From positions 1 to 39,850 of the forward strand of contig JASUTE010000017.1 of assembly GCA_030445745.1 (NCBI GenBank): a stretch of DNA of 39,850 bases, in the 5' to 3' direction. Made by a program: the position numbers and the translations under genes. This document shows, piece after piece, positions 4,885-22,774 of this stretch (positions are counted from its first letter, which is position 1; each line of letters starts with the position of its first letter). Source of the stretch: Candidatus Cloacimonadota bacterium (GTDB lineage: Bacteria; Cloacimonadota; Cloacimonadia; Cloacimonadales; TCS61). Below the pieces are notes generated by a model. It searched no databases. It saw only the letters and a list, made by a program, of their open reading frames with translations, and was not told the DNA's origin.

Positions 4885-6009
4885 TTATAAGCTATAATTA
4901 ACTAAAGCGGGTTTCTGGGAACTAACAGCAGCTTTGAATTCCTGAACCAGAGAATCGAGTAATTCTTTTACAGAAATTATTTTATCTACTCTCCAGGCAT
5001 TGGCACCAGCAAAACTAAAACCATTGGCTAATTCACCAATTTTTGCTTTTAGAAGCGCATTTGCTATGCAATAAAGAGATGTTTTGAAATCGCAGGTTTT
5101 TAAACATTTCCAAGGACAGCTAAAAGGTTTCTTAATCCCTGCTTTTACATCTTTCAAAAAGTCGTTTATTATAGCTCGTCCCGGCATTCCGACTGGACTT
5201 TGTATAATGACGATATCTTCTTTTTTACAATTAATATATTGTTTTTTGAATTTGATATCGGCGTCACATTCCTTGGTAGCTACAAAACGCGTACCCATTT
5301 GCACACCACTTGCTCCCAGATTCAAAAATTTGTTAATGTCTGCACCAGTGTAAACGCCACCGGCTGCTATAACCGGAATTTTTTTCTTGTATTTTTCCTC
5401 ATATTTTTCCAAGGCAGAGCAGACAGTTGGAATTATATTTTCCAAACTATATTCTGGGTTATTAATCTGTTCCGGTTTGAAACCTAAATGGCCACCTGCT
5501 AGGGGTCCTTCTACTACGACTGCATCTGGGATATAGGAAAAATGTTTGTCCCAGGTTTTGAAAATAAGGTTAGCAGCCCGCTCAGAAGAAATTATGGGCA
5601 CTATTTTGGTGTTGGCTTTCATTATATCGACTGCAGTAATTCCGGCTGGCAGTTTCAAAGGCAACCCAGCTCCTAGAAAAAGAATATCTATCTTTTCTTC
5701 CAAAGCTATTCTTACCATATCACTAAAGTCGGAAGTTGCCACCATTATGTTAAGGCCGATTATGCCATCAGTTAATTTTCGTGCTTTGCGTATCTCCCGG
5801 CGTAGCGCTAATTTATTGTCCTCTTTATAAGTTTGCTGCGAGCGGTTATTTAGCATTCCTAACCCTACTGAAGATATGACGCCAATGCCACCAGCATTGG
5901 CTACAGCCGAGGCTAAGCCAGACAGAGATATTCCTACCCCCATCCCTCCTTGTATTATTGGCAGTCTTGCTACCAAGTCTCCTATTCTTAATTCGGGTAT
6001 TTTACTCAT
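4885..6009 (-). CDS. Nitronate monooxygenase / FabK-like flavoprotein
   Basis: The 374-residue protein matches the nitronate monooxygenase (2-nitropropane dioxygenase) family, FMN-dependent TIM barrels that oxidise alkyl nitronates; relatives include the enoyl-ACP reductase FabK. The N-terminus LPIIQGGMGVGIS is the family's FMN-binding start, and EGPLAGGHLGF contains the conserved catalytic-position His. AAGGVYTGADI and GASGVQMGTRFVATKEC are the phosphate-binding loops. Near the C-terminus lies CPWKCLKTCDFKTSLYC, a four-Cys cluster (C-x3-C-x3-C-x7-C) that could bind metal; then comes FSFAGANAWRV, typical of the anaerobe branch of the family. Ribosome site GGAGGAGCA precedes the ATG. It lies 56 nt downstream of the TetR gene, and an inverted-repeat operator fills the gap. 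True substrate uncertain. Confidence 0.82.
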   Translation of the reverse strand: MSKIPELRIGDLVARLPIIQGGMGVGISLSGLASAVANAGGIGVISSVGLGMLNNRSQQTYKEDNKLALRREIRKARKLTDGIIGLNIMVATSDFSDMVRIALEEKIDILFLGAGLPLKLPAGITAVDIMKANTKIVPIISSERAANLIFKTWDKHFSYIPDAVVVEGPLAGGHLGFKPEQINNPEYSLENIIPTVCSALEKYEEKYKKKIPVIAAGGVYTGADINKFLNLGASGVQMGTRFVATKECDADIKFKKQYINCKKEDIVIIQSPVGMPGRAIINDFLKDVKAGIKKPFSCPWKCLKTCDFKTSLYCIANALLKAKIGELANGFSFAGANAWRVDKIISVKELLDSLVQEFKAAVSSQKPALVNYSL

Positions 6010-6022
6010 TGCTCCTCCGTAT

Positions 6023-6052
6023 TTTCGACCATTTTGGTTTTTCCGGTCGAAA
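6023..6052. promoter_or_regulatory. Inverted-repeat operator between the TetR and flavoprotein genes
   Basis: TTTCGACC (6023-6030) and GGTCGAAA (6045-6052) form a perfect 8-bp inverted repeat with a 14-nt centre. The half-site, extended as TTTCGACCATT, occurs again on the other strand ahead of the TetR gene (6682 down to 6672). That placement is what an autoregulating TetR repressor would use. No U-tract follows, so it is not a terminator. Confidence 0.65.
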
Positions 6053-6065
6053 TAAATGTAAAAAA

Positions 6066-6638
6066 TTAATCTCTCACTTCGATTCCTTTAAAAATAATCT
6101 CCATCATTCGCTGACTGTCTCTTTCCAAGTCTATCTCTTTTTGTAAAAACAGAGGATACTCTAAACCCTTAATTGCAATAGCTATCATCCGTACTACTAC
6201 ATCAACATCACAAGGAGTGAAGATATTTTTTTGGATTCCTTCATTAATTATGTTGTTAAGTATTTGATTTTCGAAATTATAGAAATCTTCCTTTACCTGT
6301 TCGATGAAAAGATAGTGGTCCAGATATTCATTGCTAAGTGATTCATAATAGTTGCTAAGCTGCTTCAGATGTAACATTCTAGTTCTTACGTACTGCATTA
6401 TCTTATCTTGAGGGCTGTATGCGTTTTCTATGCTTCGGTTCAATTTCTGGCGAAACTCGGCAAAATGTAAACCTACCATTTCAGCAAAGATATCTTCCTT
6501 GTTCTTGAAATAATAATACATAGTAGATTTGCTCATATAAGAGCGCTTGGCGATATCGTTCATGGTGGTTTTTTTGAAACCGTATTGAGCAATAAGTTCT
6601 TTGGTCGAGTCCAGAATTATCATTTTTTTCTTATCCAC
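6066..6638 (-). CDS. TetR-family transcriptional regulator
   Basis: This is a repressor of about 190 residues. I start it at the GTG at 6638 because a strong AGGAGGGG site lies 2 nt before it (6641-6648 on the plus strand); an in-frame ATG at 6689 would add 17 basic residues, have no ribosome site, and cover the upstream half-operator. The N-terminal helix-turn-helix is typical: TTMNDIAKRSYMSKSTMYYYFKNKED. The remaining ~140 residues form the ligand-binding helices with no recognisable specificity. It is first in a two-gene minus-strand unit with the flavoprotein. Half-sites GGTCGAAA upstream and the full inverted repeat downstream suggest it represses itself and the flavoprotein gene. The inducer is unknown, possibly a nitro or enoyl compound given the partner. 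Confidence 0.85.
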   Translation of the reverse strand: MDKKKMIILDSTKELIAQYGFKKTTMNDIAKRSYMSKSTMYYYFKNKEDIFAEMVGLHFAEFRQKLNRSIENAYSPQDKIMQYVRTRMLHLKQLSNYYESLSNEYLDHYLFIEQVKEDFYNFENQILNNIINEGIQKNIFTPCDVDVVVRMIAIAIKGLEYPLFLQKEIDLERDSQRMMEIIFKGIEVRD

Positions 6639-6653
6639 GTCCCCTCCTGTTTG

Positions 6654-6682
6654 TTTAGTCCGCTTCCGTCTAATGGTCGAAA
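6654..6682. promoter_or_regulatory. Second, imperfect operator ahead of the TetR gene
   Basis: GGTCGAAA at 6675-6682 is identical to the half-site of the operator at 6023-6052. Its partner here is degenerate, TTTAGTCC at 6654-6661 (6 of 8), with a 13-nt centre. It lies just upstream of the TetR ribosome site, where a bound repressor would block expression. Confidence 0.45.
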
Positions 6683-6755
6683 ACGTCAAGCTTTATTTCA
6701 ATTTTTCTTTACGAATAAGAATAAAATTGTTTCAAAAAAAAATAATTGGAAATAG

Positions 6756-7247
6756 AAAATACTGTTAACTCCCACTAAAAGCCTTTCTATAGAGGGCAGA
6801 GAAAAATATGAATTAGGTTTAACTACTGTTTTGGAATTTCAGAAAAAGATCTGGCCACAGAGTTTTAGCCTAAATTATTCTACATTGTTTGCAGTAAAAA
6901 TTGGATCCTTATGGCATTTCAATACTCATAATTCAGCTTCAGTATAACTATCTCTACCCTTATTTATTTTAGGGGAAGAGCTTTGGAAAGAGCTTATGTC
7001 TGAAATAAAAGGTTATCCTGAAAAAAATATATCGAAAACTTGATAGATGCTCTCATCATCTCTACCTCCCCGCCATCAAAGATGCATTTCTGGTGCAATT
7101 GAACAGCGAAGAATGGTACTTACATCAGGTCAGGATTTCTCTTTTGGATATCAAAGCCATACCGATAAAAAAGTGAAACTATTCTTAACTGAAACCTTTA
7201 CATTCTCGGTATGCGAACCAACAGCAGTTTTGCATCTGAAAATCTAA
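6756..7247 (+). pseudogene. Possible decayed gene, perhaps an outer-membrane protein
   Basis: One plus-strand frame reads through this stretch with only three in-frame stops (TAA 6945, TGA 7041, TAG 7044), far fewer than expected for AT-rich noncoding DNA, and ends just before an intrinsic terminator. The translated pieces alternate polar and aromatic residues, for example LGLTTVLEFQKKIWPQSFSL and FGYQSHTDKKVKLFLTET, as beta-barrel strands do. No start codon with a ribosome site is visible at the 5' end. The last intact piece, from an ATG at 7047, follows two stops and has no ribosome site, so I do not call it a separate gene. The reading as a remnant is inference. Confidence 0.3.
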
Positions 7248-7251
7248 TGTT

Positions 7252-7281
7252 AAAAGCCCCGCTCAACACTGAGGGTTTTTT
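7252..7281 (+). terminator. Intrinsic terminator after the decayed gene
   Basis: CTCA (7262-7265) and TGAG (7270-7273) close a 4-nt loop, flanked by CCC/GG pairing with a bulge and an A-run opposite a run of six T (7276-7281). It comes 5 nt after the end of the decayed reading frame. It isolates polA from upstream transcription. Confidence 0.6.
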
Positions 7282-7558
7282 ATTTCCAATGGGAAAATAA
7301 AATTGTGGCAAGCAATAATTTTAATAAATAAACCTGGTAAAAATGGTCAAAAACCAAGTTTGAAAGCTGTTTGTAAACTGAAAACCTGACCAACCCAGCT
7401 ACCACCTTATCTATCTTGCTCAAACATACTCGCTACTTGTTATTTAAAATAAATCACCGAAAACAATTCCATCTCTGTAATCACCCCTCGCCATATTTTA
7501 ATAAACTAGTAAAATTAATATTTTTTTGCCTACCTCAAAAATCTAAGACATTAACTAC

Positions 7559-7586
7559 TTGACCCATAAGTGCAATTTTGTATAAA
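7559..7586 (+). promoter_or_regulatory. polA promoter
   Basis: TTGACC (7559-7564) and TATAAA (7581-7586) are 16 nt apart. The same -10 and spacing occur ahead of kamD (19005-19032). The promoter overlaps an upstream in-frame start at 7570, which argues that translation begins at 7621 instead. Confidence 0.6.
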
Positions 7587-10507: not shown

Positions 10508-11566
10508 ATGAAAACTGGAGGTGACAGATACGGCACTCATCGTGTGGTAGAACCCAAAGGAGTTTTACCGCAACCTGCTAGAATTTTAAACAACGATATG
10601 AGTGAAATTTGGGATAATGAAATGCTTATCGATGTTATTCGTTTGAACATAGACTCGGCCTCTTTCCACCAAATTAAGACCAAATTGGAAAAACAGGGAC
10701 ATCCCGATTTGGAGAAAGCTTTTGCTGACCATATTATTGACCTTACAGAAAGAACAGGTAAGCATAAGAATGAAGACACAGGCTCCGGCGGCATGCTAAT
10801 AGGTCGCGTAGCCCAAATCGGTCCTAATTTCGAAATGAAAGATGAAGTTAAAGTTGGCGATAAAATTGCCTCTTTAGTTTCACTTTCGCTAACACCACTA
10901 AAAGTAAAAAAAGTACATAGAGTGCTTTTAGATAAAGATCAGGCAAAAATAGAAGGCCAAGCCATCTTGTTCAGCAGTGGCGTTTATGCCAAGCTGCCCG
11001 ATGATATGGATGAAAACCTGGCCTTATCTGCTTTAGATGTTGCTGGTGCTCCAGCGCAAGTAGAAAGATTGGTAAAGCCAGGTGATAAGGTAGCGATCAT
11101 AGGAGCTAATGGAAAATCTGGTATACTCTGTAATGCTGTAGCTAAAGAACGAGCCGGTGTTTCTGGCAAAGTTATTGGTGTAGTGCGTAAAGAAAGCTAC
11201 ATCGAAACCTGTAAGGCAACTGGTTGTGACGAAGTTGTATTAGCAGATGCCACTGATGCACTGGGCGTGCAAAAGGCAGTTTCCCAGGCCACTAACGGCC
11301 AATTGGCAGATGTGGTTATAAATGTTGTGAATGTGGAAAACACCGAGATGAGTAGCATTTTGGCCTGCAAAGATCGCGGAATAGTCTACTTCTTTTCGAT
11401 GGCAACCAATTTCACCAAAGCAGCCCTCGGTGCCGAAGGTGTTGGTGCAGACGTAGATATGATTCTTGGAAATGGATATGCCCACAATCATGCCCTTATT
11501 TCATTAGACCTATTACGCAGAAATCCTATCTTAATGAAAATTTTCAAAGAAAGATATACAGATTAA
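10508..11566 (+). CDS. kdd: L-erythro-3,5-diaminohexanoate dehydrogenase
   Basis: Kdd oxidatively deaminates 3,5-diaminohexanoate to 3-keto-5-aminohexanoate with NAD(P)+, the third step of lysine fermentation (EC 1.4.1.11). The 352-residue protein starts MKTGGDRYGTHRVVEPKGVLP, characteristic of the family. It has a zinc-alcohol-dehydrogenase-like fold in which the nucleotide-binding segment reads VKPGDKVAIIGANGKSGILC (~residues 190-210). Identity is strongly supported by kamA, kamD and kamE nearby. AGGAG lies 5 nt before the ATG. A terminator-like hairpin (11579-11611) separates it from kamA, so it can be expressed apart from the genes below. TTGACA at 10442 could be part of its promoter, but I see no matching -10. 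Confidence 0.92.
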   Translation: MKTGGDRYGTHRVVEPKGVLPQPARILNNDMSEIWDNEMLIDVIRLNIDSASFHQIKTKLEKQGHPDLEKAFADHIIDLTERTGKHKNEDTGSGGMLIGRVAQIGPNFEMKDEVKVGDKIASLVSLSLTPLKVKKVHRVLLDKDQAKIEGQAILFSSGVYAKLPDDMDENLALSALDVAGAPAQVERLVKPGDKVAIIGANGKSGILCNAVAKERAGVSGKVIGVVRKESYIETCKATGCDEVVLADATDALGVQKAVSQATNGQLADVVINVVNVENTEMSSILACKDRGIVYFFSMATNFTKAALGAEGVGADVDMILGNGYAHNHALISLDLLRRNPILMKIFKERYTD

Positions 11567-11578
11567 TAAGTTAGCAAT

Positions 11579-11611
11579 GGAACGAAGTGAGCTCCGTTCC
11601 TAATTTTTTTT
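11579..11611 (+). terminator. Intrinsic terminator/attenuator between kdd and kamA
   Basis: GGAACG (11579-11584) pairs with CGTTCC (11595-11600) around a 10-nt loop, and eight T follow at 11604-11611. The T-run directly abuts the kamA ribosome site (GGAGGAG from 11612). It would reduce read-through from kdd into kamA, or serve as a regulated attenuator. Confidence 0.65.
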
Positions 11612-11620
11612 GGAGGAGAA

Positions 11621-12865
11621 ATGTCACTACACACAATCATGAAGAATACTTCTTCCGAGCAGTGGAATGATTGGCACTGGCAAATAAGAAACCGAATCAC
11701 TTCATTGCAGGAACTTAAAAGATATATAAAATTAAGCCCAGATGAAGAAAAAATATTAACTTTGGAAAAATTCCCTTTCCGTATGGCTATTACCCCCTAC
11801 TATCTGTCGCTTATCGATGAAAAAAACCCGCAAGATCCCATAAGGCTGCAGGCTATTCCTAGAATTTTCGAGAGCAACGTAAGCCGTTCTGATATGAACG
11901 ACCCACTGCATGAAGATACCGATTCACCAGTTCCGGGTCTCACCCATCGCTATCCTGATCGCGTACTTCTGCTGGTTACCGATCAATGCTCCATGTATTG
12001 CCGTCATTGCACCAGACGCCGTTTAGCTGGAGAAACCGATACAATGTTACCGATGGATAAAATAGAAAATGCTATCGATTACATACGTAAAACTCCTGAA
12101 GTACGTGATGTGATTATAAGTGGAGGAGATCCGTTAACTCTGAGTGATGATCGTTTGGACAAAATTTTAAGTGAAATCTCAGCTATAGAGCATGTGGAAA
12201 TAATTCGCATAGGAACCCGCACTCCAGTAGTTCTACCACAGCGTATCACCGATGACCTAATAAAAGTATTGAAAAAGTATCCACCCATCTGGCTGAATAC
12301 ACATTTCAATCATCCGCAAGAGATAACTTCAACTGCTATAAAAGCTTTGGACAAATTAGTAGAAAATGGCATCGTGGTTGGAAATCAGTCTGTTTTACTG
12401 CGCGGAATAAACGACCAGGTTGATGTGATGAAAGCGCTGGTGCATAAATTAGTGCAAAATCGGGTACGCCCCTACTATATCTATCAATGCGATCTTTCCA
12501 TGGGTATTTCGCATTTCCGCACTCCTATCTCCCGTGGTATCGAGATTATGGAATCTTTGCGCGGACACACTTCCGGACTGTGCGTACCTACTTACGTTGT
12601 AGATGCACCCGAAGGTGGAGGCAAAATTCCAATACAGCCAAATTATATTATTTCTCAATCGCCCGGCCGTGTAGTACTACGTAACTATGAAGGAGTAATT
12701 TGCAGCTACACCGAGCCGGAATATCGCGATCAGGAAATAGAACAATATCGTTCACCTGTAAAGAAAATTGCTAGGTCGGAAGAGGGAGTGATGTCTCTTT
12801 TAAGAGGACGTAAAATTGCGATTGGACCAGACACAACCAGAAATCATCGCAAAACTAAAAAATAG
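11621..12865 (+). CDS. kamA: Lysine 2,3-aminomutase (radical SAM)
   Basis: KamA moves the alpha-amino group of L-lysine to C3, giving L-beta-lysine, the first step of lysine fermentation. It uses S-adenosylmethionine, a [4Fe-4S] cluster and PLP. In the 414-residue protein the radical-SAM motif CSMYCRHC supplies Cys123, Cys127 and Cys130. The PLP lysine is Lys335 in [10 protein letters not shown], and the two aspartates that grip the substrate amino group appear in YYIYQCDLS and at Asp328, seven residues before the PLP lysine as in the clostridial enzyme. This separates it from EF-P beta-lysylation enzymes (EpmB), which are shorter and sit beside efp. The ribosome site GGAGGAG follows the attenuator immediately. 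The next gene, kamB, overlaps its 3' end by 50 nt. Confidence 0.96.
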
Positions 12866-13832
12866 AATTACCTCATCGCTCTACACAGTTTTAGTCGGAT
12901 TAAGCAAAAATGCTGGTAAAACTTCTTTGCTTAACTGGCTGCTAAAACACAGCAAATTTGACCAACCGGCAGTTATTACAACTGGCAGAGATGGAGAAGA
13001 ATTAGATTTGGTAGGTGGGCACAGTAAACCCAAAGTTGAACTACCTGCCAATACCTTTTTCACCTGCTTCAGCTCTACTTTGTCGGCAAATGCACCATAT
13101 ATTAAAATAATTGGCCGTACACCTTTTTCTGCCTTAAATCGCCAGCTTTGGCTAGCCCAAAGCTTGTTCCCGTTAAAAACCGAAATTGTGGGGCCCGCTA
13201 CAGTTTCCAAACAAATTGCTCTTGCCGACTATATTTTAGAAAAAGGCGCTAATCATATCTTCATCGATGGTTCGTTAGACAGACGCTCGATTGCTACCCA
13301 TCCAAAAATTAAAGAGTTATTTTTGGTTGCTGGAGCTGAATATGGTGATTTACAGGAAATAAGCAGTGAATTACACAAGCTACACAGTCTTATAGATATT
13401 CCGCCTATCCCAAATCCAAATTTTAGCAATGAAATAAGCTACCAATTGAAGGGGAAACAAATCCAAGCTAGATTCAGGAGAATTTACGGACATGAACATG
13501 AAATAACAAATTGGGAAAATGCTGAATTTATCTACTTCCCAGGTGCCCTTACCGATATCTCTTTTAACAAAATGAAGCAATTTTTTTGTAATTATTCCGG
13601 CAAACTCATCTTTCAACACCCTTTCTTTTTACAGCTTAACGAACATAATTTAAACTTGCTAAAAAAACATACTTGCTTGTATTGTGTGAATAGTATAAAA
13701 ATAGCTGCTATCGCTGTGAACAGTTTTGCTTCCAATGGTAAACATCTGGATTGCCAACATCTGCGAGCTACACTGCAATCGAAATTTCCGGAGCTATTGA
13801 TATTCGATATCAAGGAAGTAATTTATGAATAA
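12816..13832 (+). CDS. kamB: KamB, P-loop protein of the lysine fermentation cluster
   Basis: The 338-residue product carries a clear Walker A motif, GLSKNAGKT (residues 28-36), near its N-terminus, and GGHSKP and [18 protein letters not shown] further on, like a small SIMIBI-type NTPase. It corresponds by position and motif to kamB of Fusobacterium and Clostridium lysine clusters. Its biochemical role is not established; assisting or reactivating the B12-dependent 5,6-aminomutase together with KamC has been suggested. Start: TTG at 12816, 7 nt after AGAGGA, inside the kamA 3' end; another TTG at 12822 is possible, and no ATG lies near. It overlaps kamA by 50 nt and kamC by 8 nt, so translation is probably coupled. 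Confidence 0.75.
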
Positions 13833-15408
13833 AAATACCTTTGAAGCCTTAAATTTGGCAGATATCTTAACAGAGATAAAACCACTTTCTTTGGGTAAAC
13901 AATGGCAACATCGGCCTTATTCACCACAACATAAACAGAAATTACAAAACTATTTTGAAAAACTAAAACTATTACTAAATTCTTTAGAAAAAAATCCACA
14001 ACTAAGCACTCAATTAAGCGGACAACTTGTCCATCTGAATAACATTAAAAACACATTAAATAAATTGGAAAAAATTCAGATCTTACAGGTTTTCGAGGTG
14101 CAGGAAATAAAAAACTTACTCTATTTCTACCTTAAAATAAAAAAAATACTACAGAAGAATAAGCTGTCTATTATTCAGCTTCCCAAGGTGGAAAAATTAT
14201 TTTCATTTTTGGATAAGGAAGATCAGAACAGTCCTGTTTTCCACCTTAGCAACTGTTATTCTGCCAAATATGCCAAACTGCTCCAGGAATATGAACAAAC
14301 TACAAAAAAGTTGGCACAATTACGCAAAGAAAATCTGCAAAAGGCAGCTTCCCAACTGAATATGACCAAAGCTGAGCCTCAGATAGTAGTCTCTCGTTTA
14401 GACAAAAAACAGATAGAAAAACTCACTAATTCTGAATCCTATTACTTAGAAGCGGAAAATTTTGCCAACTATACCTTCCAAATAAGAAAAACAGAAGCAA
14501 TTTTGGAATTGGAAAATATACAAAACACCCTGCAAACGGCAATAGAAAAGGAATCCAGTAAAATTTTGGAAAAAATTAGCAAAGTGATATCGGTTTATGA
14601 AGAAGAATTGAGCACAATTTTTTCCGAGTTAACTAAGCTTGATATGCTACTAGCTAAAGCTGAATTTTGCAGAAAACATAACTGCTGTGTTCCTAATATA
14701 ACCCGGAAATTATCTTTAAAACAAGCTCGGAATTTACCTTTGGAATGGGAGTTGAGTAAAAACAACATAGCTTTGCAACCGGTCGATATTAATCTGCAAA
14801 ACAAAGTAAACATAATTACTGGAACCAACATGGCCGGTAAAACTACCGTTCTAAAAACGATAGGGCAAATTGTATATTTGGCAAACTGCGGTATACCAGT
14901 ACCCTGTCAAAAAGCTGATCTGCCCTTGGTAGAATTCATATTTTTCAGTGGCTACCAGCAGAGTAGAATGGATCTTAGCAGTTTTGCCAGCGAAGTAGTG
15001 GAAATAAACGAAGTCCTTTCTGAACCAGGGTCTGGTTTAGTTTTAATAGATGAATTTGCCCGCGGCACCAACCCGGAAGAAGGTGAGGCGTTTTCTAAAA
15101 CAGTGTTAGAAGTTTTTCTGGAGAAAGAAAGCCTCGTGGTTGCTGCAACTCATTTTTCAGCGCCCGCACAGATAAAAAAAGCAGCACATTTTCGCATTAA
15201 AGGCATAAAAGCAGACAACTATGCCAAGTTGCAGCAGCTTCCCAACCTACAAAACCGGTTAGCTGAATTACATAAATTTATGGATTACTCGCTCAAACAA
15301 GTTGCAGTCGATTCCCCACCTCCCAAAGCTGCTTTGATAATTGCTGAGATCTTGGGAATAGATAGAAAAATAATAAAAAAAGCAAAAGATTTTTTGAATG
15401 ATAAATAG
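13825..15408 (+). CDS. kamC: KamC, MutS-like ATPase of the lysine fermentation cluster
   Basis: The 527-residue protein has a MutS-family ATPase domain at ~300-500: Walker A GTNMAGKTT (residues 333-341) and Walker B LVLIDEFARGTN (Asp409, Glu410), followed by a conserved His (AATHFS). The N-terminal half is a helical lever/clamp-like region rich in Lys, Leu and Gln. The MutS mismatch-recognition domain and the MutS2 Smr nuclease domain are both absent, so DNA repair is unlikely. The gene matches kamC, which accompanies kamB in lysine clusters. A likely but unproven role is ATP-driven remodelling or reactivation of the adenosylcobalamin enzyme. It overlaps kamB by 8 nt and the following permease gene by 11 nt. 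Confidence 0.8.
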   Translation: MNKNTFEALNLADILTEIKPLSLGKQWQHRPYSPQHKQKLQNYFEKLKLLLNSLEKNPQLSTQLSGQLVHLNNIKNTLNKLEKIQILQVFEVQEIKNLLYFYLKIKKILQKNKLSIIQLPKVEKLFSFLDKEDQNSPVFHLSNCYSAKYAKLLQEYEQTTKKLAQLRKENLQKAASQLNMTKAEPQIVVSRLDKKQIEKLTNSESYYLEAENFANYTFQIRKTEAILELENIQNTLQTAIEKESSKILEKISKVISVYEEELSTIFSELTKLDMLLAKAEFCRKHNCCVPNITRKLSLKQARNLPLEWELSKNNIALQPVDINLQNKVNIITGTNMAGKTTVLKTIGQIVYLANCGIPVPCQKADLPLVEFIFFSGYQQSRMDLSSFASEVVEINEVLSEPGSGLVLIDEFARGTNPEEGEAFSKTVLEVFLEKESLVVAATHFSAPAQIKKAAHFRIKGIKADNYAKLQQLPNLQNRLAELHKFMDYSLKQVAVDSPPPKAALIIAEILGIDRKIIKKAKDFLNDK

Positions 15409-16315
15409 AACAGAGAAATTGGTTGCTGCCAGTGCCATTATATTCTCGGCAATACTGTGGGGATTCGATGGCGTTTATCTAACCCCAAATTTGTTCCAAC
15501 TAGATGTTGGCTTTGTTGTATTTATGCTACATCTTATCCCCTTTGTGCTAATGAACACATTTTTATATAAAGAATATCGTCATCTTACCGAAATGAATTT
15601 AAGCGATCTAGTCACATTCTTTTTGATAGCGCTTTTTGGAGGAGCTCTGGGTACTTTGGCAATTGTAAGAGCGCTATTTCTGGTTCAATTCAATCACCTT
15701 TCCATAGTAGTGTTGTTGCAAAAATTGCAGCCGATTTTTGCTATCGCTTTGGCTGCTGTAATTTTAAAAGAGAAACTGACAAAACATTTTGGGCTGTGGG
15801 CTGCGATAGCTATATTAGCAAGTTATTTTTTAACCTTTGGACTGAACTTACCTGAAGTAAACGCCAAAAGTAATCTTTTGGCAGCAGCATTATGGGCACT
15901 ATTGGCAGCGTTTTCTTTTGGTGCTTCCACTGTATTCAGCAAGAAAGCTTTGCAAAAATATTCCTACTACACAGCAAATTTCTACAGATTCGGTTTTACC
16001 ACTATTATAATGCTAATATTTGTTCTAATTACCGGTAAATTATCGGAATTTGCAAGTGTAAATGATCGCCAATGGATGTTTTTTATCATAATTTCTCTTA
16101 CCACTGGTTCAGCTACTATTTTTCTATATTACTATGGCTTAAAAAAAGTAAGCGCTATGGTTTCCACTATCTGTGAATTATTTTTTCCTATCTCCGCTGT
16201 ATTTTTCGATTATATTATAAATAAACAAAGCTTGACAGCTGCCCAGTGGGTAAGCGCAATTATCATGATGATAGCTATATTGAAGATAAGTTATCAAAGA
16301 AAGAGGGTGAGATGA
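15398..16315 (+). CDS. EamA/DMT-superfamily permease
   Basis: The 305-residue integral membrane protein has about ten hydrophobic helices arranged as two EamA repeats (e.g. VVLLQKLQPIFAIALAAVIL in repeat 1; a matching ISAVFFDYIINKQSL segment near the end of repeat 2), the architecture of drug/metabolite transporters. Its ATG lies within the kamC 3' end and its TGA overlaps the next start (ATGA), so it is translated as part of the kam operon. By context it may import lysine or export a product such as beta-lysine or acetoacetate; the sequence does not show which. No dedicated lysine permease of another family is visible nearby. Confidence 0.8.
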   Translation: MINRTEKLVAASAIIFSAILWGFDGVYLTPNLFQLDVGFVVFMLHLIPFVLMNTFLYKEYRHLTEMNLSDLVTFFLIALFGGALGTLAIVRALFLVQFNHLSIVVLLQKLQPIFAIALAAVILKEKLTKHFGLWAAIAILASYFLTFGLNLPEVNAKSNLLAAALWALLAAFSFGASTVFSKKALQKYSYYTANFYRFGFTTIIMLIFVLITGKLSEFASVNDRQWMFFIIISLTTGSATIFLYYYGLKKVSAMVSTICELFFPISAVFFDYIINKQSLTAAQWVSAIIMMIAILKISYQRKRVR

Positions 16316-16896
16316 GGATTTTAACAATGTTTTTTTTAATCTGTTTATTGTTGCCATTGACTGCTGAGCTAGATGAACAGATTTCTGATAAAAATGACAG
16401 GGTTTTCGAAAATATCGAAAAAGATTTTAAACTAGCCAAATATTTTTTTTCATCGCCACTTAAGCACTATACAAAAGACTTGGAAGATGAAGATAAACGT
16501 ATCTTTTTGAAACGTTTCTGGGAAAATAGAGATCCTAACCCGGTTACTTCCCAAAATGAATTCGTGGAAGAAGTAAAAGTACGTGTTAACTACGCCAACA
16601 CTCATTTTTCGCACTATCAGGATGGCTGGGAAAGTGCTCGGGGGCGTATTTATATAAAATATGGTCCACCTTTTGAAATTATTAACGATGTTACAGGCAT
16701 AAACACTAAATACACTCAGAAAGAATATCAAGTTTGGAAATATAGACTTAATCAAAATACAACTTATATCTTTTTAGATTTAGGTGGTTATGGAGATTAC
16801 AGACTTATTTACAGTGAAAATGATGATGATGAAATAACTTTGCCAGATTGGCGCAGTTATTTGGGTAATTCTTTTAAAGAAAGCTACTTATATTAA
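16312..16896 (+). CDS. Secreted GWxTD-domain protein
   Basis: The 194-residue protein begins with a signal peptide (MRILTMFFLICLLLPLTA) and contains the GWxTD-domain signature region: residues ~55-110 include KRFWENRDPNP and DGWESARGRIYIKYGPP, followed by YQVWKYRL. Such domains occur in proteins of unknown function in Bacteroidota, Acidobacteriota and related anaerobes, probably in the periplasm. I start at the ATG at 16312, which overlaps the permease stop (ATGA) after GAGGGTGAG; an in-frame ATG at 16246 would bury the signal peptide. It is the first of four envelope genes that continue the kam operon. Confidence 0.75.
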   Translation: MRILTMFFLICLLLPLTAELDEQISDKNDRVFENIEKDFKLAKYFFSSPLKHYTKDLEDEDKRIFLKRFWENRDPNPVTSQNEFVEEVKVRVNYANTHFSHYQDGWESARGRIYIKYGPPFEIINDVTGINTKYTQKEYQVWKYRLNQNTTYIFLDLGGYGDYRLIYSENDDDEITLPDWRSYLGNSFKESYLY

Positions 16897-16912
16897 GAAA
16901 GTGGAGGAAAAG

Positions 16913-17512
16913 ATGAAAAAGGGTTGTTTAATAGCTATTATTGCTGTTGTTGTAATTGGAATTATTTTATATTCCTTCTTTGCAGGCTCCTACAATAAAA
17001 TGGTTCAAATGGACGAAAATGTTAAGGAAAAATGGAGTCAGGTGGAAAATGTATATCAACGTCGTTATGATTTAATTCCCAACCTGGTAGAAACAGTTAG
17101 AGGCTATGCGGCACACGAGCAGGAGACCTTTAAAATGGTTACGGAAGCCAGAGCCAAAGCTGGTGGCACTTTGCAAGTTTCCGATGATGTCCTGAACGAT
17201 CCCCAGAAGTTCCAGCAATTCCAGCAAGCACAAGCCAACCTGGGAAATGCCCTGCAACGACTGATGGTTGTGGTAGAGCGCTATCCCGAACTGAAAGCCA
17301 ACCAAAACTTTTTGGCACTGCAAGATCAATTGGAAGGAACTGAAAACAGAATAGCTGTGGAACGTAAGCGCTTTAATCAGGCAGCCCGCCAATACAATAC
17401 CTACATAAAGCAATTCCCGCAGGTAATTTTAGCTAACTTATACGGCTTTCAGACAAAACAATACTTTGAATCGGTAACTGGTGCTGAAACAGCCCCAGAA
17501 GTCAACTTTTAG
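16913..17512 (+). CDS. lemA: LemA-family membrane protein
   Basis: The 199-residue protein has one N-terminal membrane helix (LIAIIAVVVIGIILYSFFAG) and a helical LemA domain, with the family hallmarks WSQVENVYQRRYDLIPNLVE, LQRLMVVVERYPELKANQNF and ENRIAVERKRFNQAARQYN. LemA proteins are coiled-helix proteins of unclear function, often next to TPM-domain genes, as here. The ATG at 16913 has GTGGAGG before it; the in-frame ATG at 16901 overlaps that ribosome site and is rejected. It is 16 nt after the GWxTD gene and 9 nt before the first TPM gene. Confidence 0.9.
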   Translation: MKKGCLIAIIAVVVIGIILYSFFAGSYNKMVQMDENVKEKWSQVENVYQRRYDLIPNLVETVRGYAAHEQETFKMVTEARAKAGGTLQVSDDVLNDPQKFQQFQQAQANLGNALQRLMVVVERYPELKANQNFLALQDQLEGTENRIAVERKRFNQAARQYNTYIKQFPQVILANLYGFQTKQYFESVTGAETAPEVNF

Positions 17513-17521
17513 GAGATTAAT

Positions 17522-18187
17522 ATGTTCAAATTCAGCGAAAAGGAAAAGAATCAGATTAGCTCCGCAGTTAAAAAAGCTGAAGCCAATACTTCGGGCGAAA
17601 TAGCTACAGCCTTTATTAAAGAAAGCTACGATTATGCTATCTACGAACTACTCTTTGCAGTTATCATAGGATTTATCTATTTTACGGTTATGATGTTTTT
17701 CAGTGGTTACATAGATACTACCTTGCAAAATATGTTTTGGGATTACAACATAAATTATCTACTCATTTTTTATGGATTTTCTACCTTTTTAGTTATAGCT
17801 TTAGCCTATTTTATAGCTAACATTTCCCTTATCGATCGCTTAATAGTTCCCGCTAAAATAAAACAACAAAAGGTAGAAGAACGAGCAATGCAGCATTTTA
17901 TGCAATCGGGTGTTTCCTACACTCGCGATAGAACAGGCATTCTTATCTTCATTTCCTATTTGGAAAAAAGGGTCATTCTTTTAGCAGATTCTGCTATAAA
18001 CGAAAAAATAGAGCAACACGAGTGGCAAAAGATAGTGGATCATATAGTTGCTGGAATAAAAGAGGATAAGCTAACCCAAAATTTGGTGGATGCCATTAAC
18101 GATTGCGGCAACTTACTTCAGAAGTATTTTCCTATAAAAAAAGATGATACTAATGAACTTGATAATAATATAGAGATCTTGGAGTAG
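17522..18187 (+). CDS. TPM-domain membrane protein
   Basis: The 221-residue protein begins FSEKEKNQISSAVKKAEANTSGEIATAFI, the start of a TPM (TLP18.3/Psb32/MOLO-1) domain. The domain is interrupted by two membrane helices (~43-63 and ~78-100) and resumes with RTGILIFISYLEKRVILLAD and HEWQKIVDHIVAGIKE. This split layout is common in the partner of LemA/YgcG loci. Psb32-type relatives have acid phosphatase activity in plants, but bacterial function is unsettled. AGGAG precedes the ATG, and the next gene follows after 2 nt. Confidence 0.8.
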   Translation: MFKFSEKEKNQISSAVKKAEANTSGEIATAFIKESYDYAIYELLFAVIIGFIYFTVMMFFSGYIDTTLQNMFWDYNINYLLIFYGFSTFLVIALAYFIANISLIDRLIVPAKIKQQKVEERAMQHFMQSGVSYTRDRTGILIFISYLEKRVILLADSAINEKIEQHEWQKIVDHIVAGIKEDKLTQNLVDAINDCGNLLQKYFPIKKDDTNELDNNIEILE

Positions 18188-18189
18188 TC

Positions 18190-18936
18190 ATGAGAAAATT
18201 AGTTTTGATATTCATATTATTGGCTGTATCTTTCGGTTTATTTGCCTTGGAAGTTCCCCAATTAAAAGGCACAGTAAACGATTATGCAGGAGTTTTATCG
18301 AAAGATCAAGAACATCGGCTGGAATCTTTACTACGCGAAACAGAAAAACAAACCGCTTCGCAAGTAGTTTTACTCACTATCCCTTCACTCCAGGGTGAAA
18401 ATTTAGAAGATTATTCTTTTCGCGTAGCTGAAAAATGGCAGCTGGGGCAAAAGGAACTGGATAATGGCGTTTTGCTTCTGGTTTCTATGCAAGAAAAGAA
18501 AATCAGAATAGAAGTAGGTTATGGTTTGGAATCAACTATAACAGATTTGAAAAGTGGTTACATAATTCGCAAATTCATTGTGCCCGAGTTCAAACAGGGT
18601 AATTTCTATCAAGGTATTTCAAAAGGACTGGTAGCAATCACTGGGCTTATATCCAACGATTTTGAAATTAGCCAGGAAGAATTGGCAAAATATCAGCAAG
18701 AGCTCGAAAATAGTGGAGGCCATCTCCCGATTGGCGGCATTGTTTTCCTAATTATGATAGTGCTGGGCTCTCTAGGTCGTCGTGGCCGCAGAGGAGGGAT
18801 CTTACCATGGCTTATTGTAGGTAGCATGTTAGGCGGTGGCCGAGATCACGGCGGCGGTTTTGGCGGCGGTGGTTTTGGCGGTTTTTCCGGCGGAGGTGGC
18901 AGCTTCGGCGGAGGCGGTGCTTCCGGAGGTTGGTAA
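18190..18936 (+). CDS. YgcG-type TPM-domain protein with a glycine-rich tail
   Basis: The 248-residue protein has a signal peptide (MRKLVLIFILLAVSFGLFA), a TPM domain at ~25-150 (GTVNDYAGVLSKDQEHRLES; NGVLLLVSMQEKKIRIEVGY; FKQGNFYQGISKGL), a membrane segment at ~178-215 and a tail of repeated GGGFGG and SGGGGSFGG units ending GASGGW. This is the classic YgcG architecture: an extracytoplasmic TPM domain anchored by its C-terminus. It forms a set with LemA and the preceding TPM protein and closes the upstream operon before a strong terminator. The low-complexity tail is typical of the family, not an assembly artefact. Confidence 0.88.
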   Translation: MRKLVLIFILLAVSFGLFALEVPQLKGTVNDYAGVLSKDQEHRLESLLRETEKQTASQVVLLTIPSLQGENLEDYSFRVAEKWQLGQKELDNGVLLLVSMQEKKIRIEVGYGLESTITDLKSGYIIRKFIVPEFKQGNFYQGISKGLVAITGLISNDFEISQEELAKYQQELENSGGHLPIGGIVFLIMIVLGSLGRRGRRGGILPWLIVGSMLGGGRDHGGGFGGGGFGGFSGGGGSFGGGGASGGW

Positions 18937-18969
18937 CAGCTAAAGATTAAATTTTAAATATCCTTTTTC

Positions 18970-18992
18970 GCCGGCTGAGAAGCCGGCTTTTT
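18970..18992 (+). terminator. Strong intrinsic terminator closing the kamA-TPM operon
   Basis: GCCGGCT (18970-18976) and AGCCGGC (18981-18987) form a perfect 7-bp GC-rich stem with a GAGA tetraloop, followed by five T (18988-18992). It lies 34 nt after the last TPM gene and just ahead of the kamD promoter. Confidence 0.92.
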
Positions 18993-19004
18993 GCTAATTT
19001 ACCC

Positions 19005-19032
19005 TTGACTACAAACAGCATTACGCTATAAA
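19005..19032 (+). promoter_or_regulatory. kamDE promoter
   Basis: TTGACT (19005-19010) and TATAAA (19027-19032) are 16 nt apart, immediately after the terminator. The predicted start near 19039 gives a leader of only ~23 nt before the kamD GTG. The two aminomutases of the pathway can thus be expressed independently. Confidence 0.7.
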
Positions 19033-19061
19033 AGGATAAAATTATTATTTTTGGAGGAGAA

Positions 19062-20621
19062 GTGATACAGCTAACAATTGATACTAATAAAATTAAAGAA
19101 GCCAGAAATTACGCTGCCAAAATTGTAAATTCACTTACCTGGCTCCTGCAAGACTATACTTCCACCACCATTGAAAGGACTGTTCTGCGATTAATGGGAA
19201 TAGACGGCATCGCTGGCGATAACACTCCCATTCCCAATCTGGTAGTAGAACATTTACAGCAAAAAAAAGTGCTGAACAGAGGTGCAGCTTACTGGCTGGC
19301 AAATGCTATAGTTGCCAAAAATCTTTCTGCTCAAGAAGTTGCCGAACTGGTTGCTACTAATCAGCTGGATCTAACTGAAATTTCCGCTCAACCCAATCAG
19401 AAAGTATTGGAAATTTTAGATAAAATATCTAGTGAAAATTTAGCTAAGATTGCCGAACAACGCCAGATACGTCAGCAGGCTTTTGAAAAATATGGGAGGC
19501 GCAATAAACCCGCCATTTATGTGATAGTTGCTACCGGAAATATTTACGATGATGTGGTTCAGGCAAAAGCTGCTGCCCGCGAAGGTGCCGATATTATCGC
19601 CGTTATTCGCTCTACCGCGCAATCGCTGTTAGATTACGTGCCTTATGGTGCAACCACCGAAGGTTTTGGTGGCACATTTGCTACCCAGGAAAACTTTCGT
19701 ATTATGCGCAAAGGTTTAGATGAAGTAGGCCAAGAACTGGGAAAATATATCTCGCTCACTAATTATGCTTCCGGACTTTGTATGCCTGAGATCTCTGCTA
19801 TGGGTGCTTTGGAAAGACTGGATTGCATGCTGAACGATGCAATGTATGGCATTTTGTTTCGAGATATTAATATGAAAAGAACGCTTTTAGATCAATATTT
19901 CAGTCGCATGATAAACGCTTACGCCGGTATTCAGATCCAAACAGGGGAAGATAACTACCTTACCACTTCCGATGCTATAGAAAAAGCTTATACAGTTACA
20001 GCTTCCCAACTAATAAACGAACAATTTGCTCTGATTAGTGGCATAGAACATAAAAATATGGGACTGGGCCACGCCTTCGAAATAAACCCGGCAATAGAGA
20101 ATAGTTTTTTATACGAGCTTTCACACGCTCTGCTAACCCACACTCTGTTCCCAGATTGCCCTACCAAATATATGCCACCTACAAAATTTGCTACTGGCAA
20201 TATATTCCGCACTTATCTGCTTAATGGTATGTTCAATTTTGTTGGCCAAATTACCGATCAGGGTACACAACTTCTGGGAATGATGACCGAAGCAGTACAC
20301 ACTCCGCATCTGGTAGATCGAGCGCTTGCTATAGAAAATGCTCAATACGTTTTCAATGCAACCAAGGATTTTAAAAATGAATTCACCCTGAAACCAGATG
20401 GAATAATTAACAAACGAGCAAAACAGGTTTTAGAAGAAGCAACCGATTTCTTACGTAAAGTTTCTGAAAAGGGTCTTTTCCAAGCTATGAGCGCAGGTGA
20501 ATTCGCCGATATCGTACGTACAGAAACTGGTGGTAAAGGTTTAGACGGAGTCCTTCCCAAAAGCGAAGATTACCTGAACCCATTTATGGACAAAATGAAA
20601 ACTGAGCTTAAACTGCAATAA
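19062..20621 (+). CDS. kamD: Beta-lysine/D-lysine 5,6-aminomutase, alpha subunit
   Basis: KamD is the large subunit of the adenosylcobalamin- and PLP-dependent 5,6-aminomutase, which shifts the terminal amino group of beta-lysine to give 3,5-diaminohexanoate. The 519-residue length is usual. Family regions include IYVIVATGNIYDDVVQAKAA, REGADIIAVIRSTAQSLLDY, PYGATTEGFGGTFATQENFR and TNYASGLCMPEISAMGALER. It starts at GTG 19062 with GGAGGAGAA just before it, and kamE follows after 13 nt. It has its own promoter. No truncation or missing segment is apparent. Confidence 0.95.
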   Translation: MIQLTIDTNKIKEARNYAAKIVNSLTWLLQDYTSTTIERTVLRLMGIDGIAGDNTPIPNLVVEHLQQKKVLNRGAAYWLANAIVAKNLSAQEVAELVATNQLDLTEISAQPNQKVLEILDKISSENLAKIAEQRQIRQQAFEKYGRRNKPAIYVIVATGNIYDDVVQAKAAAREGADIIAVIRSTAQSLLDYVPYGATTEGFGGTFATQENFRIMRKGLDEVGQELGKYISLTNYASGLCMPEISAMGALERLDCMLNDAMYGILFRDINMKRTLLDQYFSRMINAYAGIQIQTGEDNYLTTSDAIEKAYTVTASQLINEQFALISGIEHKNMGLGHAFEINPAIENSFLYELSHALLTHTLFPDCPTKYMPPTKFATGNIFRTYLLNGMFNFVGQITDQGTQLLGMMTEAVHTPHLVDRALAIENAQYVFNATKDFKNEFTLKPDGIINKRAKQVLEEATDFLRKVSEKGLFQAMSAGEFADIVRTETGGKGLDGVLPKSEDYLNPFMDKMKTELKLQ

Positions 20622-20634
20622 GAGAGGCAAGATT

Positions 20635-21375
20635 ATGTCGATAAAAATAGATCCAACCAAAATAAAACCCTATGGTGACAGTTTAGACGACGGCAGAATG
20701 CAAATTTCTTTTGCTCTACCAGCACCGGCAGACGAAAAAGGTAAAGAAGCTGCAAGACTGCTTTTAAAAAAGATGGGATTGGAAAATATCGAGGTCTGCT
20801 ATTATTCCGATTTGGGTGAAGGCTTTACTCATTTTGTAGCTTATGTTTCCACAAATGCTACAATCGATCTCACCAAAATAGAAGTGAAAACAGTTGATAC
20901 CCCCGTGATGGATTTAGAAGAAACTGATAAATTCATGGCTGAAAATGTGAAAAGAAAGATAACCGTGGTGGGCGCTTGCATAGAAAGTGATGCACATACT
21001 GTGGGCATTGATGCTATTATGAACATGAAAGGCTACAATCATCGCTTTGGTTTAGAGCGTTATCAATATTTTAGAACAATAAACATGGGAGCACAGGTTC
21101 CTTCGGAAGAGCTTTTGGCTAAAGCTGTAGAAGAAAACGCCGATGTTGTCTTGGTTTCACAAGTTGTAACTCAGAAAAATATCCATATCCGTAACCTTAC
21201 TAAGCTTATCGAACTGGCAGAAGCGGAAGGACTGCGCGATAAAATGTTGTTTATCTGCGGGGGACCGCGCATTTCACACGAACTGGCAATAGAACTGGGT
21301 TACGATGCTGGCTTTGGCAGTGGCTCTTATGCCACCGATGTGGCTTCCTATATTGCTTTTCATTTTGCCAAATAA
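20635..21375 (+). CDS. kamE: Beta-lysine/D-lysine 5,6-aminomutase, beta subunit
   Basis: KamE carries the cobalamin-binding Rossmann domain of the 5,6-aminomutase. The 246-residue protein has the base-off motif DxHxxG (DAHTVG, His121 as lower cobalt ligand). Lys132, 11 residues later in NMKGYN, occupies the place of the lysine that forms the internal PLP aldimine in the clostridial enzyme, where the spacing is the same (His133/Lys144). The later FICGGPRISHELA segment lines the cobalamin tail pocket. Residues 1-100 form the dimerisation domain. It is co-transcribed with kamD; an 81-nt gap with a possible promoter separates it from atoD. Confidence 0.95.
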   Translation: MSIKIDPTKIKPYGDSLDDGRMQISFALPAPADEKGKEAARLLLKKMGLENIEVCYYSDLGEGFTHFVAYVSTNATIDLTKIEVKTVDTPVMDLEETDKFMAENVKRKITVVGACIESDAHTVGIDAIMNMKGYNHRFGLERYQYFRTINMGAQVPSEELLAKAVEENADVVLVSQVVTQKNIHIRNLTKLIELAEAEGLRDKMLFICGGPRISHELAIELGYDAGFGSGSYATDVASYIAFHFAK

Positions 21376-21394
21376 TTTTTATTACAAAAAATCC

Positions 21395-21422
21395 TTGAAC
21401 ATTTTTAAACAAAACGTAATTT
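21395..21422 (+). promoter_or_regulatory. Possible atoDA promoter
   Basis: TTGAAC (21395-21400) and TAATTT (21417-21422) are 16 nt apart, the same spacing as the polA and kamD promoters. Both hexamers are imperfect. It could give the CoA-transferase genes independent expression, but read-through from kamE is equally possible since no terminator is seen between them. Confidence 0.4.
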
Positions 21423-21456
21423 ATCGCTTAATCAAAAAATAAAGAAGGAGTAACAA

Positions 21457-22110
21457 ATGCCACAAATTATTTCTGCACCTCAAGCTGCTGCCCTGATAAA
21501 ACCTCACGATCGTATCATGTTTGGTTCATTTTTAGCAGCGGGGGCTGCTTGCAGTCTTATCGATGCATTGATGGAAGCGGGAACGCAAAACTTGCATATG
21601 ATCACCATAGCCACCGATTATGATGACCGCGGGGTAGGTAAACTGATTTCCAATAAACAGATTAAATCGTTACAATGTTCGCATATTGGAACCAATAAAT
21701 CCACACAGGCTCAGATGAATGCAGGCGAGATAGAAATAGAACTGATTCCCCAAGGTACATTAGCAGAGCGCATCCGTGCTGCTGGAGCTGGTTTAGGTGG
21801 AATTTTAACACCTACCGGAGTGGATACTGTTGTGGAAGATGGTAAACAAAAATTTGAATTTGATGGAAAAGCTTATATTTTGGAACGTCCTATAAAAGCT
21901 GATTTTGCTTTTATCCGTGCCAAAAAAGCAGACAAACTAGGAAATTTAGTCTATTACAAAACAGCGCGTAATTCCAATCCGGCAATGGCAATGGCCGCTA
22001 AAACAACTATTGTAGAGGTAGATGAAATTGTAGAAATTGGCCAAATCGACCCTGAAAATGTTATTACTCCCGGAATTTTCGTAGATTACTTAGTGAAAAG
22101 GGAGGTGTAA
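21457..22110 (+). CDS. atoD: Acetoacetate/butyrate-type CoA-transferase, alpha subunit
   Basis: This 217-residue subunit belongs to the class I (SCOT-like) CoA-transferases. HDRIMFGSFLAAGAACSLIDAL near the N-terminus and QGTLAERIRAAGAGLGGILTPTG are the typical CoA-site segments, and RPIKADFAFIRAKKADKLGN follows. With AtoA it swaps CoA between acyl-CoA and acetoacetate; in lysine fermentation acetoacetate is made by Kce and butyryl-CoA from crotonyl-CoA, so the pair would release butyrate and form acetoacetyl-CoA. Specificity rests on context: other short acids are possible. AAGGAG precedes the ATG, and atoA starts 1 nt after the stop. Confidence 0.88.
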   Translation: MPQIISAPQAAALIKPHDRIMFGSFLAAGAACSLIDALMEAGTQNLHMITIATDYDDRGVGKLISNKQIKSLQCSHIGTNKSTQAQMNAGEIEIELIPQGTLAERIRAAGAGLGGILTPTGVDTVVEDGKQKFEFDGKAYILERPIKADFAFIRAKKADKLGNLVYYKTARNSNPAMAMAAKTTIVEVDEIVEIGQIDPENVITPGIFVDYLVKREV

Positions 22111-22111
22111 G

Positions 22112-22774
22112 ATGATGGATCGCAAAGAAAAACGCAAAATGATAGTAAGACGCATCGCCCAGGAAATTAAAGATGGCGATTTTGTAAATTTGGGAATTGG
22201 CATGCCTACCGAAGTTGCCAATTATATCCCCGAAGACATAACTGTATATTTCCAAAGTGAAAATGGCATTTTAGGTGTTGGCCCTGCTCCTGAACCAGGG
22301 AAAGAAGATCCTGACCTGATAAATGCAGGTGGTGGTTATATAACCGAGAAAAAAGGAGCTGCTTATTTTGATTCCTGTACCAGCTTCGCTATTATTCGGG
22401 GCGGCCACCTAGACATGACAGTTCTTGGTGCTTTGCAAGTTGACCAAGAGGGTAATTTGGCCAACTGGATGATTCCTGGTAAATTAGTACCTGGTATGGG
22501 CGGTGCAATGGATCTAGTAGCCGGTACCAAAAAAGTAGTAATCGCTATGGAACACCGTGATAAACATGGTAATTCCAAGATATTGAAAAAATGTAATTTG
22601 CCACTCACTGCAGCTGGTAAAGTTAACTTGATAGTTACCGATATGGCAGTGATAGAAGTTACCGAAAAAGGCTTGCTACTAAAGGAAGTTGCTGCCTGGA
22701 CAAACTTGGAAGAAGTTAAACAAGCTACAGAAGCCGATTTGATAGTAGCTGATAATGTAGGGACTTTCGAATAA
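22112..22774 (+). CDS. atoA: Acetoacetate/butyrate-type CoA-transferase, beta subunit
   Basis: This 220-residue catalytic subunit has the conserved glutamate that forms the glutamyl-CoA thioester: Glu50 in FQSENGILGVGP. GDFVNLGIGMPTEVANYIPE before it and VDQEGNLANWMIPGKLVPGMGGAMDLV after it are signatures of the family. The ribosome site GGGAGGTG lies inside the atoD 3' end; two adjacent ATGs (22112, 22115) could serve as start. It closes the lysine region, being followed 8 nt later by a terminator. Confidence 0.9.
   Translation: MMDRKEKRKMIVRRIAQEIKDGDFVNLGIGMPTEVANYIPEDITVYFQSENGILGVGPAPEPGKEDPDLINAGGGYITEKKGAAYFDSCTSFAIIRGGHLDMTVLGALQVDQEGNLANWMIPGKLVPGMGGAMDLVAGTKKVVIAMEHRDKHGNSKILKKCNLPLTAAGKVNLIVTDMAVIEVTEKGLLLKEVAAWTNLEEVKQATEADLIVADNVGTFE

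Follow-up and report, generated by a model that had tools for sequence, protein, structure and literature searches.

Paired candidate operators around a TetR-family gene suggest an autoregulated tetR-fabX operon in a Cloacimonadota bacterium

Which protein recognizes the repeated sequence found on both sides of a TetR-family gene in Candidatus Cloacimonadota bacterium, and which genes are placed under its control? The window, by which is meant the whole stretch of 39,850 nucleotides analysed here (GCA_030445745.1, contig JASUTE010000017.1), carries a tetR gene and a fabX-like gene that share the minus strand as their coding strand. The order of elements on this strand is TTGACG, site O1, GGAGGGG, the GTG start (6638), the tetR stop (6066), site O2, a ribosome site and the fabX ATG (6009) (Table 1). 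Taken as a whole, the locus is best explained as a tetR-fabX operon under autoregulation, each of whose operators would take a dimer of dimers of the regulator, which probably senses an acyl chain; we consider this combined explanation likely.

The inverted repeat that an earlier note had reported between the regulator and flavoprotein genes is confirmed: TTTCGACC-N14-GGTCGAAA forms a perfect palindrome, site O2, at 6023-6052. Within the window it is the sole match with three or fewer mismatches, for which 0.16 matches are expected, and the exact arms TTTCGACC-N10-18-GGTCGAAA occur once in the genome (2.04 Mb, 38 contigs, 99.3% complete), this occurrence being O2. The genome search that the note had proposed thus returned a unique exact palindrome rather than the many copies in unrelated coding DNA that would have spoken against an operator. 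A run of six T residues stands between the tetR stop and O2 (6053-6066), and by eye this run often has seven or eight T residues in the orthologs at many fabX-linked loci.

The half-site repeated upstream of the regulator gene does recur, ending at 6682 as had been described, but it is not a lone half. More specifically, the minus strand reads TTTCGACC-ATTAGACGGAAGC-GGACTAAA, a complete 29-bp site with an N13 spacer and two mismatches, both in the second arm GGACTAAA. When 230-nt pieces cut from the fetched loci were shuffled by mononucleotide, none of 4000 such pieces contained an N13/N14 site with two or fewer mismatches and five contained one with three. The ATT extension that the two sites had been said to share is coincidental, because the plus strand of O2 had been compared with the minus strand of O1; read in the direction of the genes, O2 gives TTTCGACCGGAAAAACC... 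instead.

The longest possible tetR frame opens with a TTG at 6689 that is the TTG of the TTGACG hexamer, and this start is spurious. The GTG start, which the ribosome site GGAGGGG precedes, is supported by the N-termini of the orthologs, which begin at or beside the residue of the window's GTG (MDEKK-like versus V/MDKKK). The argument that O1 lies inside the longest frame and outside the GTG-started gene, and that operator and start choice support each other, holds as well. A promoter scan marked none at O1, where no good -10 element was found, and its three matches compare with 3.1 in shuffled sequence. The adjoining region of about 0.9 kb between tetR and a DNA polymerase I frame (6690-7569) has no listed open reading frame of at least 90 aa. 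Elsewhere in the window, positions 10508-22774 hold an apparent lysine fermentation cluster, with an L-erythro-3,5-diaminohexanoate dehydrogenase (NCBIfam match) followed, as judged by eye from the translated frames, by a protein like lysine 2,3-aminomutase, two subunits resembling those of aminomutases and two resembling those of CoA-transferases.

Table 1. Elements of the tetR-fabX locus, in window coordinates.
Feature	Position	Strand	Basis
Candidate operator O1, TTTCGACCATTAGACGGAAGCGGACTAAA (N13), 5' of tetR	6654..6682	-	Sequence and ortholog comparison
TTGACG, -35-like hexamer	6684..6689	-	One base 5' of O1
GGAGGGG, tetR ribosome-binding site	6641..6647	-	Sequence
tetR, GTG start, 190 aa, TetR/AcrR family	6066..6638	-	Reading frame, domain and fold matches
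Candidate operator O2, TTTCGACCGGAAAAACCAAAATGGTCGAAA (N14)	6023..6052	-	56-bp gap, tetR stop to fabX start
Inner half of O2, AACC-N5-GGTC, proposed gene-proximal dimer site	6027..6039	-	Sequence comparison, inference
fabX-like gene, 374 aa, nitronate-monooxygenase/FabX family	4885..6009	-	PF03060, structure-chain alignment

Orthologs of the regulator were collected at E<=1e-40 across the phylum, and the 124 genomes searched yielded 23 such loci. O1 is kept within four mismatches in 21 of the 22 loci with upstream sequence, six of them having no mismatch at all, and by eye the remaining locus (L004) has five. A TTGAC hexamer stands one or two bases 5' of O1 in 19 of these 22, again by eye. As in autoregulatory TetR operators, the site is near-palindromic, lies 5' of its own tetR gene and is retained in the orthologs. 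The fabX-like flavoprotein gene is the next gene at 20 of the 23 loci, and no fabX was seen adjoining the other three tetR orthologs (L141-L143). O2 is kept within four mismatches in 13 of the 20 tetR-fabX loci; it is degenerate, with five mismatches, in L004, L008 and L135, and missing from L137, L139 and L140. In L007 the position of O2 is taken by a shorter palindrome of 23 bp, TTTCGACT-N7-AGTCGAAA, perhaps a single-dimer version. The O2 spacer is N14 in the window and in the weak O2 of L133, and N13 in the other eleven of the 13. By eye, the two-site plan, with one site before and one after tetR, is kept in a paralogous set of TetR genes in this and related genomes (L024, L009, L010, L025; L011). 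The arms of these paralogous sites have diverged while the inner AGAAC or AAAAACC is kept, and the gene that follows is GNAT-like in L024, has a similar start in L009, L010 and L025, and differs in L011.

A search that made no use of any protein bears on the link between site and regulator. The exact pattern TTCGACC-N12-15-GGTCGAA was sought in the 124 genomes, with the reversed pattern as control, and found at 16 sites in 16 genomes, compared with 15 sites in 14 genomes for the control. Raw enrichment of the pattern across the phylum was accordingly of no useful degree (16 versus 14 genomes), and because the count alone is hardly enriched, adjacency had to be tested. All 16 sites lie beside an open reading frame recognized by the TetR profile, whereas none of the 15 control sites does within the flanking sequence fetched (1.5 kb at most); the pattern is separated from its control by position beside tetR rather than by count. 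The 16 sites have spacers of N13 (nine) or N14 (seven), though N12 and N15 were also permitted, and eight belong to orthologs of the window tetR and eight to other tetR genes, six of the 16 coming from one genus. The reading of the repeats as TetR operators is thus supported by their conservation in orthologs, by this adjacency and by their near-uniqueness in the genome, and O1 and O2 are very probably the operators of the TetR protein encoded between them, as judged from sequence comparison.

How far this control extends was approached with a sequence-only profile of 29 positions built from 26 sites, O1 being in the training set and O2 absent from it. With 150 of 870 candidates scored in the own genome, the profile returned O2 (E 0.011), O1 (E 0.016) and, next in rank, a partial match of 19 nt (E 0.27), and no convincing third site was found among the candidates scored. 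In seven of eight relatives the top match, by its coordinates, is O1 or O2 of the tetR-fabX locus, which is so partly by construction, since the training set included sites from these genomes; in the eighth (G101) a contig end removes O1 and the sole match (E 0.27) lies elsewhere. A wider regulon, sought in the own and related genomes with 150 candidates scored per genome, was rejected: five of the nine hits beyond the tetR locus (L145, L158, L159, L163, L165) look by eye like coding sequence matched by chance. Control is thus probably local, with one regulator and two sites. Related TetR genes beside other genes show the same operator plan, their neighbours including MMPL transporters (L035, L037), a FabH-like gene (L052), a GNAT-like gene (L024), radical SAM genes (L038, L042) and a TolC-type efflux gene (L076). 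The counts give no support to the operator as a hallmark of the entire TetR group: of 131 distinct TetR proteins, 48 have a site with three or fewer mismatches upstream and 13 downstream, contig ends truncating some of the loci.

Could these sequences have another meaning? In the transcript of tetR and fabX, O2 might fold into an RNA hairpin that serves as an attenuator, a processing site or a stability element, with O1 a mere resemblance. O2 can form an 8-bp hairpin of -9.8 kcal/mol (z -2.25; for the O2 of L005, z -6.5), and the central AC, where present, points the same way with respect to the gene at almost every site. This reading is nevertheless very unlikely, given that the conserved bases reach beyond the pairing and include the unpaired central AC, that O1 of the window carries the same motif, folds poorly (z -0.02) and abuts a -35-like hexamer, and that the exact sites are tied to tetR genes without exception (16 of 16). 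No T run follows O2 and a terminator scan leaves it unmarked; on the strength of scan, folding and base conservation, a hairpin or terminator is rejected as its main reading. We give next to no credence to ownership of the sites by another regulator, with the adjacent TetR incidental. Two further relatives of the TetR protein are indeed encoded in the genome (C15 and C21, at E<=1e-10), but every exact site in the 124 genomes adjoins tetR, the profile matches of the relatives centre on the tetR-fabX locus in seven cases of eight (partly by construction), and the C15 paralog has diverged sites of its own (L024).

A further alternative grants O1 its function and treats O2 as a remnant in decay, or as a titration site that leaves fabX unaffected. 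O2 is indeed weak or absent in seven of the 20 tetR-fabX loci. It is, however, the better copy of the two in the window and in several orthologs, with no or one mismatch in L002, L003, L128, L129 and L130, and three fabX genes beside which no tetR was seen (L192, L195, L197) are preceded by a site with four mismatches, although these are close relatives and the point is weak. This alternative is improbable, and an autoregulated tetR-fabX operon, in which the regulator would control both genes, is in our judgement very likely.

The architecture of the sites bears on how they may be occupied. The repeated unit is GACC-N4/5-(A)AC(C)-N5-GGTC; the centres of its arms, GACC and GGTC, are separated by 17 bp, and a third half-site, AC(C), lies inside. 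The length of 29/30 bp is QacR-like and the inner AC stands 6 bp before the GGTC arm. In O2, which exceeds most of the orthologous sites by one base, the AACC-N5-GGTC spacing is intact; compared with the orthologs, the additional base can be placed to the left of AACC, which retains AACC-N5-GGTC. Single TetR dimers are described as covering 15-17 bp and dimers of dimers 22-32 bp, several of the latter on non-palindromic DNA (PMC4150764, excerpt). Because a site of 29/30 bp exceeds the known single-dimer sites, two dimers are the most likely occupants, and the 17-bp arm distance with the inner half-site makes two overlapping dimers the natural reading. Two dimers per site are therefore predicted, a prediction that we consider probable.

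The inner half-site may also give the operator a direction. In the FabX-linked clade, O1 and O2 alike have a strong inner half-site (AAC) on the side nearer the gene, and many related TetR genes share this arrangement. Among the 61 upstream and downstream N13/N14 sites with three or fewer mismatches found at the 131 TetR proteins, the inner AC is in gene sense in 41, reversed in two and absent from 18; the 51 distinct sites of N13 type alone give 38 sense, none reversed and 13 unmarked. When the proteins are clustered at 60% identity, the upstream sites fall into nine sense-only, two mixed (sense or none), two reversed and 11 unmarked clusters, and the downstream sites into five sense clusters and one unmarked. 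A universal polarity was rejected, as L119 and L121 have the inner half on the opposite side and 18 of the 61 sites lack it. Relatedness accounts for part of the polarity, which may reflect descent or function. A bolder proposal, that the locus represents an undescribed lipid sensor for oxygen-independent, FabX-like unsaturated synthesis with a directional operator whose orientation relative to transcription may matter, is tentative and rather doubtful. If true, the orientation might serve to block polymerase from one side.

The flavoprotein gene that the earlier note had named beside O2 is there; the description was incomplete, as the protein is closest to FabX. Its best solved relatives are the chains 9lt5 and 7e1q (E 1e-73 over 353 residues), with FabK far behind at about 1e-29 to 1e-16. 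The Protein Data Bank labels both chains 2-nitropropane dioxygenase, and we take them to be Helicobacter pylori FabX. All residue numbers in the excerpted PMC8626469 fit this chain, bearing out that identity. PF03060 places the protein in the NMO-type family, its H174 aligns with the catalytic His182, and C298, C302, C306 and C314 align with the [4Fe-4S] cysteines C300, C304, C308 and C320. T130 and R164, acyl carrier protein (ACP) contacts called conserved in FabX homologs (PMC8626469, excerpt), are not kept, being L and H in the pairwise alignment with the FabX chain; the FabX reaction is thus not assured and the name FabX-like is used. The protein scores 142.9 bits against FabK (TIGR03151), below the curated cut-off of 453.1. 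Judged from its sequence, a putative FabX-like activity would make cis-3-enoyl-ACP.

The genome has one fabX copy at E<=1e-5, a single match to PF07977 (FabA/FabZ family), which by eye is an LpxC-FabZ-like fusion beside lpxA-like genes, and no PF00487 desaturase. The fabX-like gene is therefore a likely source of unsaturated lipids, the search having covered fabX, PF07977 and PF00487. At E<=1e-60, fabX has 61 matches in 60 of the 124 genomes; in the best 30 of these 61 loci a tetR gene is directly upstream in 19 and none in 11, one of which (L192) has merely 127 nt of upstream sequence. In L012 and L014 a more distant tetR precedes fabX, and no site with four or fewer mismatches was found in the 130 nt 5' of fabX. 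Related fabX genes with no tetR seen adjoining (L192, with only these 127 nt, L195 and L197) carry TTTAGAACAAATGAYCAAATTGTTCGAAG before their start. FabX-type enzymes have been proposed as a route to unsaturated lipids for anaerobes without FabA (excerpts of PMC8626469 and PMC11300592). According to the excerpted PMC11300592, unsaturated acyl chains cannot be made anaerobically in the gonococcus without the relative NGO1024, whose electron acceptor is unknown, and a FabX from gut Bacteroidales aided B. theta tolerance of ceftriaxone. With a FabX-like target, the circuit gains a likely purpose.

The regulator itself has a TetR_N helix-turn-helix (PF00440, 61.2 bits, cut-off 24) and a full-length, all-helical TetR fold in its predicted model (pLDDT 80.9, nine helices). 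The folds near this model include 3f0c (Z 19.5, 184 residues, rmsd 2.6) and B. subtilis FadR with stearoyl-CoA (Z 18.6); EthR, MtrR and QacR are within about one Z unit of FadR and so tied, and the folds settle no ligand. By sequence and predicted fold together, the regulator lies near 3f0c, Bacillus FadR, EthR, MtrR and QacR, again mostly tied. FadR is also its best NCBIfam name (NF053878), at 56.1 bits, far below the curated cut-off of 200. These neighbours are compatible with an acyl ligand, which they fit but do not prove. Confidence in such a ligand is reduced because the target lacks two FabX ACP-contact residues, and for acyl sensing in the control of unsaturated lipids we see an even chance.

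The circuit might then work as follows. TetR would cover O1, directly 3' of the -35-like TTGAC, and so repress its own promoter; at O2 it would fill most of the 56-bp gap and control the downstream fabX-like gene, either by stopping read-through into fabX or by closing an internal promoter. The regulator may be a membrane-lipid homeostat that senses acyl-CoA or acyl-ACP, the most likely role because FabX, with no need of FabA, introduces the cis double bond into unsaturated fatty acids. Unsaturated acyl thioesters are known to strengthen the binding of FabR. The same sign would be preferred here since fabX would make the product; alternatively, acyl-CoA could release the regulator, as in FadR.

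A regulator of this kind is not described in the available excerpts of PMC8626469 and PMC11300592, and among the papers listed by literature searches none dealt with TetR control of fabX. A regulator-operator pair that is recognizable from DNA alone would allow the controlled genes to be predicted in uncultured bacteria. Among known regulators, FabR and DesT act on FabA/FabB and a desaturase. The window protein resembles them as a TetR-family protein linked to a gene for the ratio of unsaturated to saturated lipids (excerpts of PMC6449355 and PMC4150764), and differs in its FabX-type target and in a site of 29/30 bp versus 17 bp in DesT (PMC4150764, excerpt). The FadR proteins of B. subtilis and B. 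halodurans (3whb, 3whc, 5gp9), of which 3whc holds stearoyl-CoA, are among its best sequence and fold matches, whereas FadR governs fatty acid degradation. Two dimers occupy the long sites of QacR (28 bp) and CprB (22 bp), as is predicted here, and CprB is likewise an autoregulator (PMC4150764, excerpt); sequence, spacing and regulated genes differ. The target gene belongs to the family of H. pylori FabX and NGO1024, with the equivalents of His182 and Cys300/304/308/320 kept, and differs from H. pylori FabX at T130 and R164. NGO1024 is also named UfaA. Set beside these systems, the proposed circuit is well supported and of an ordinary type, with a target that is both new and sensible.
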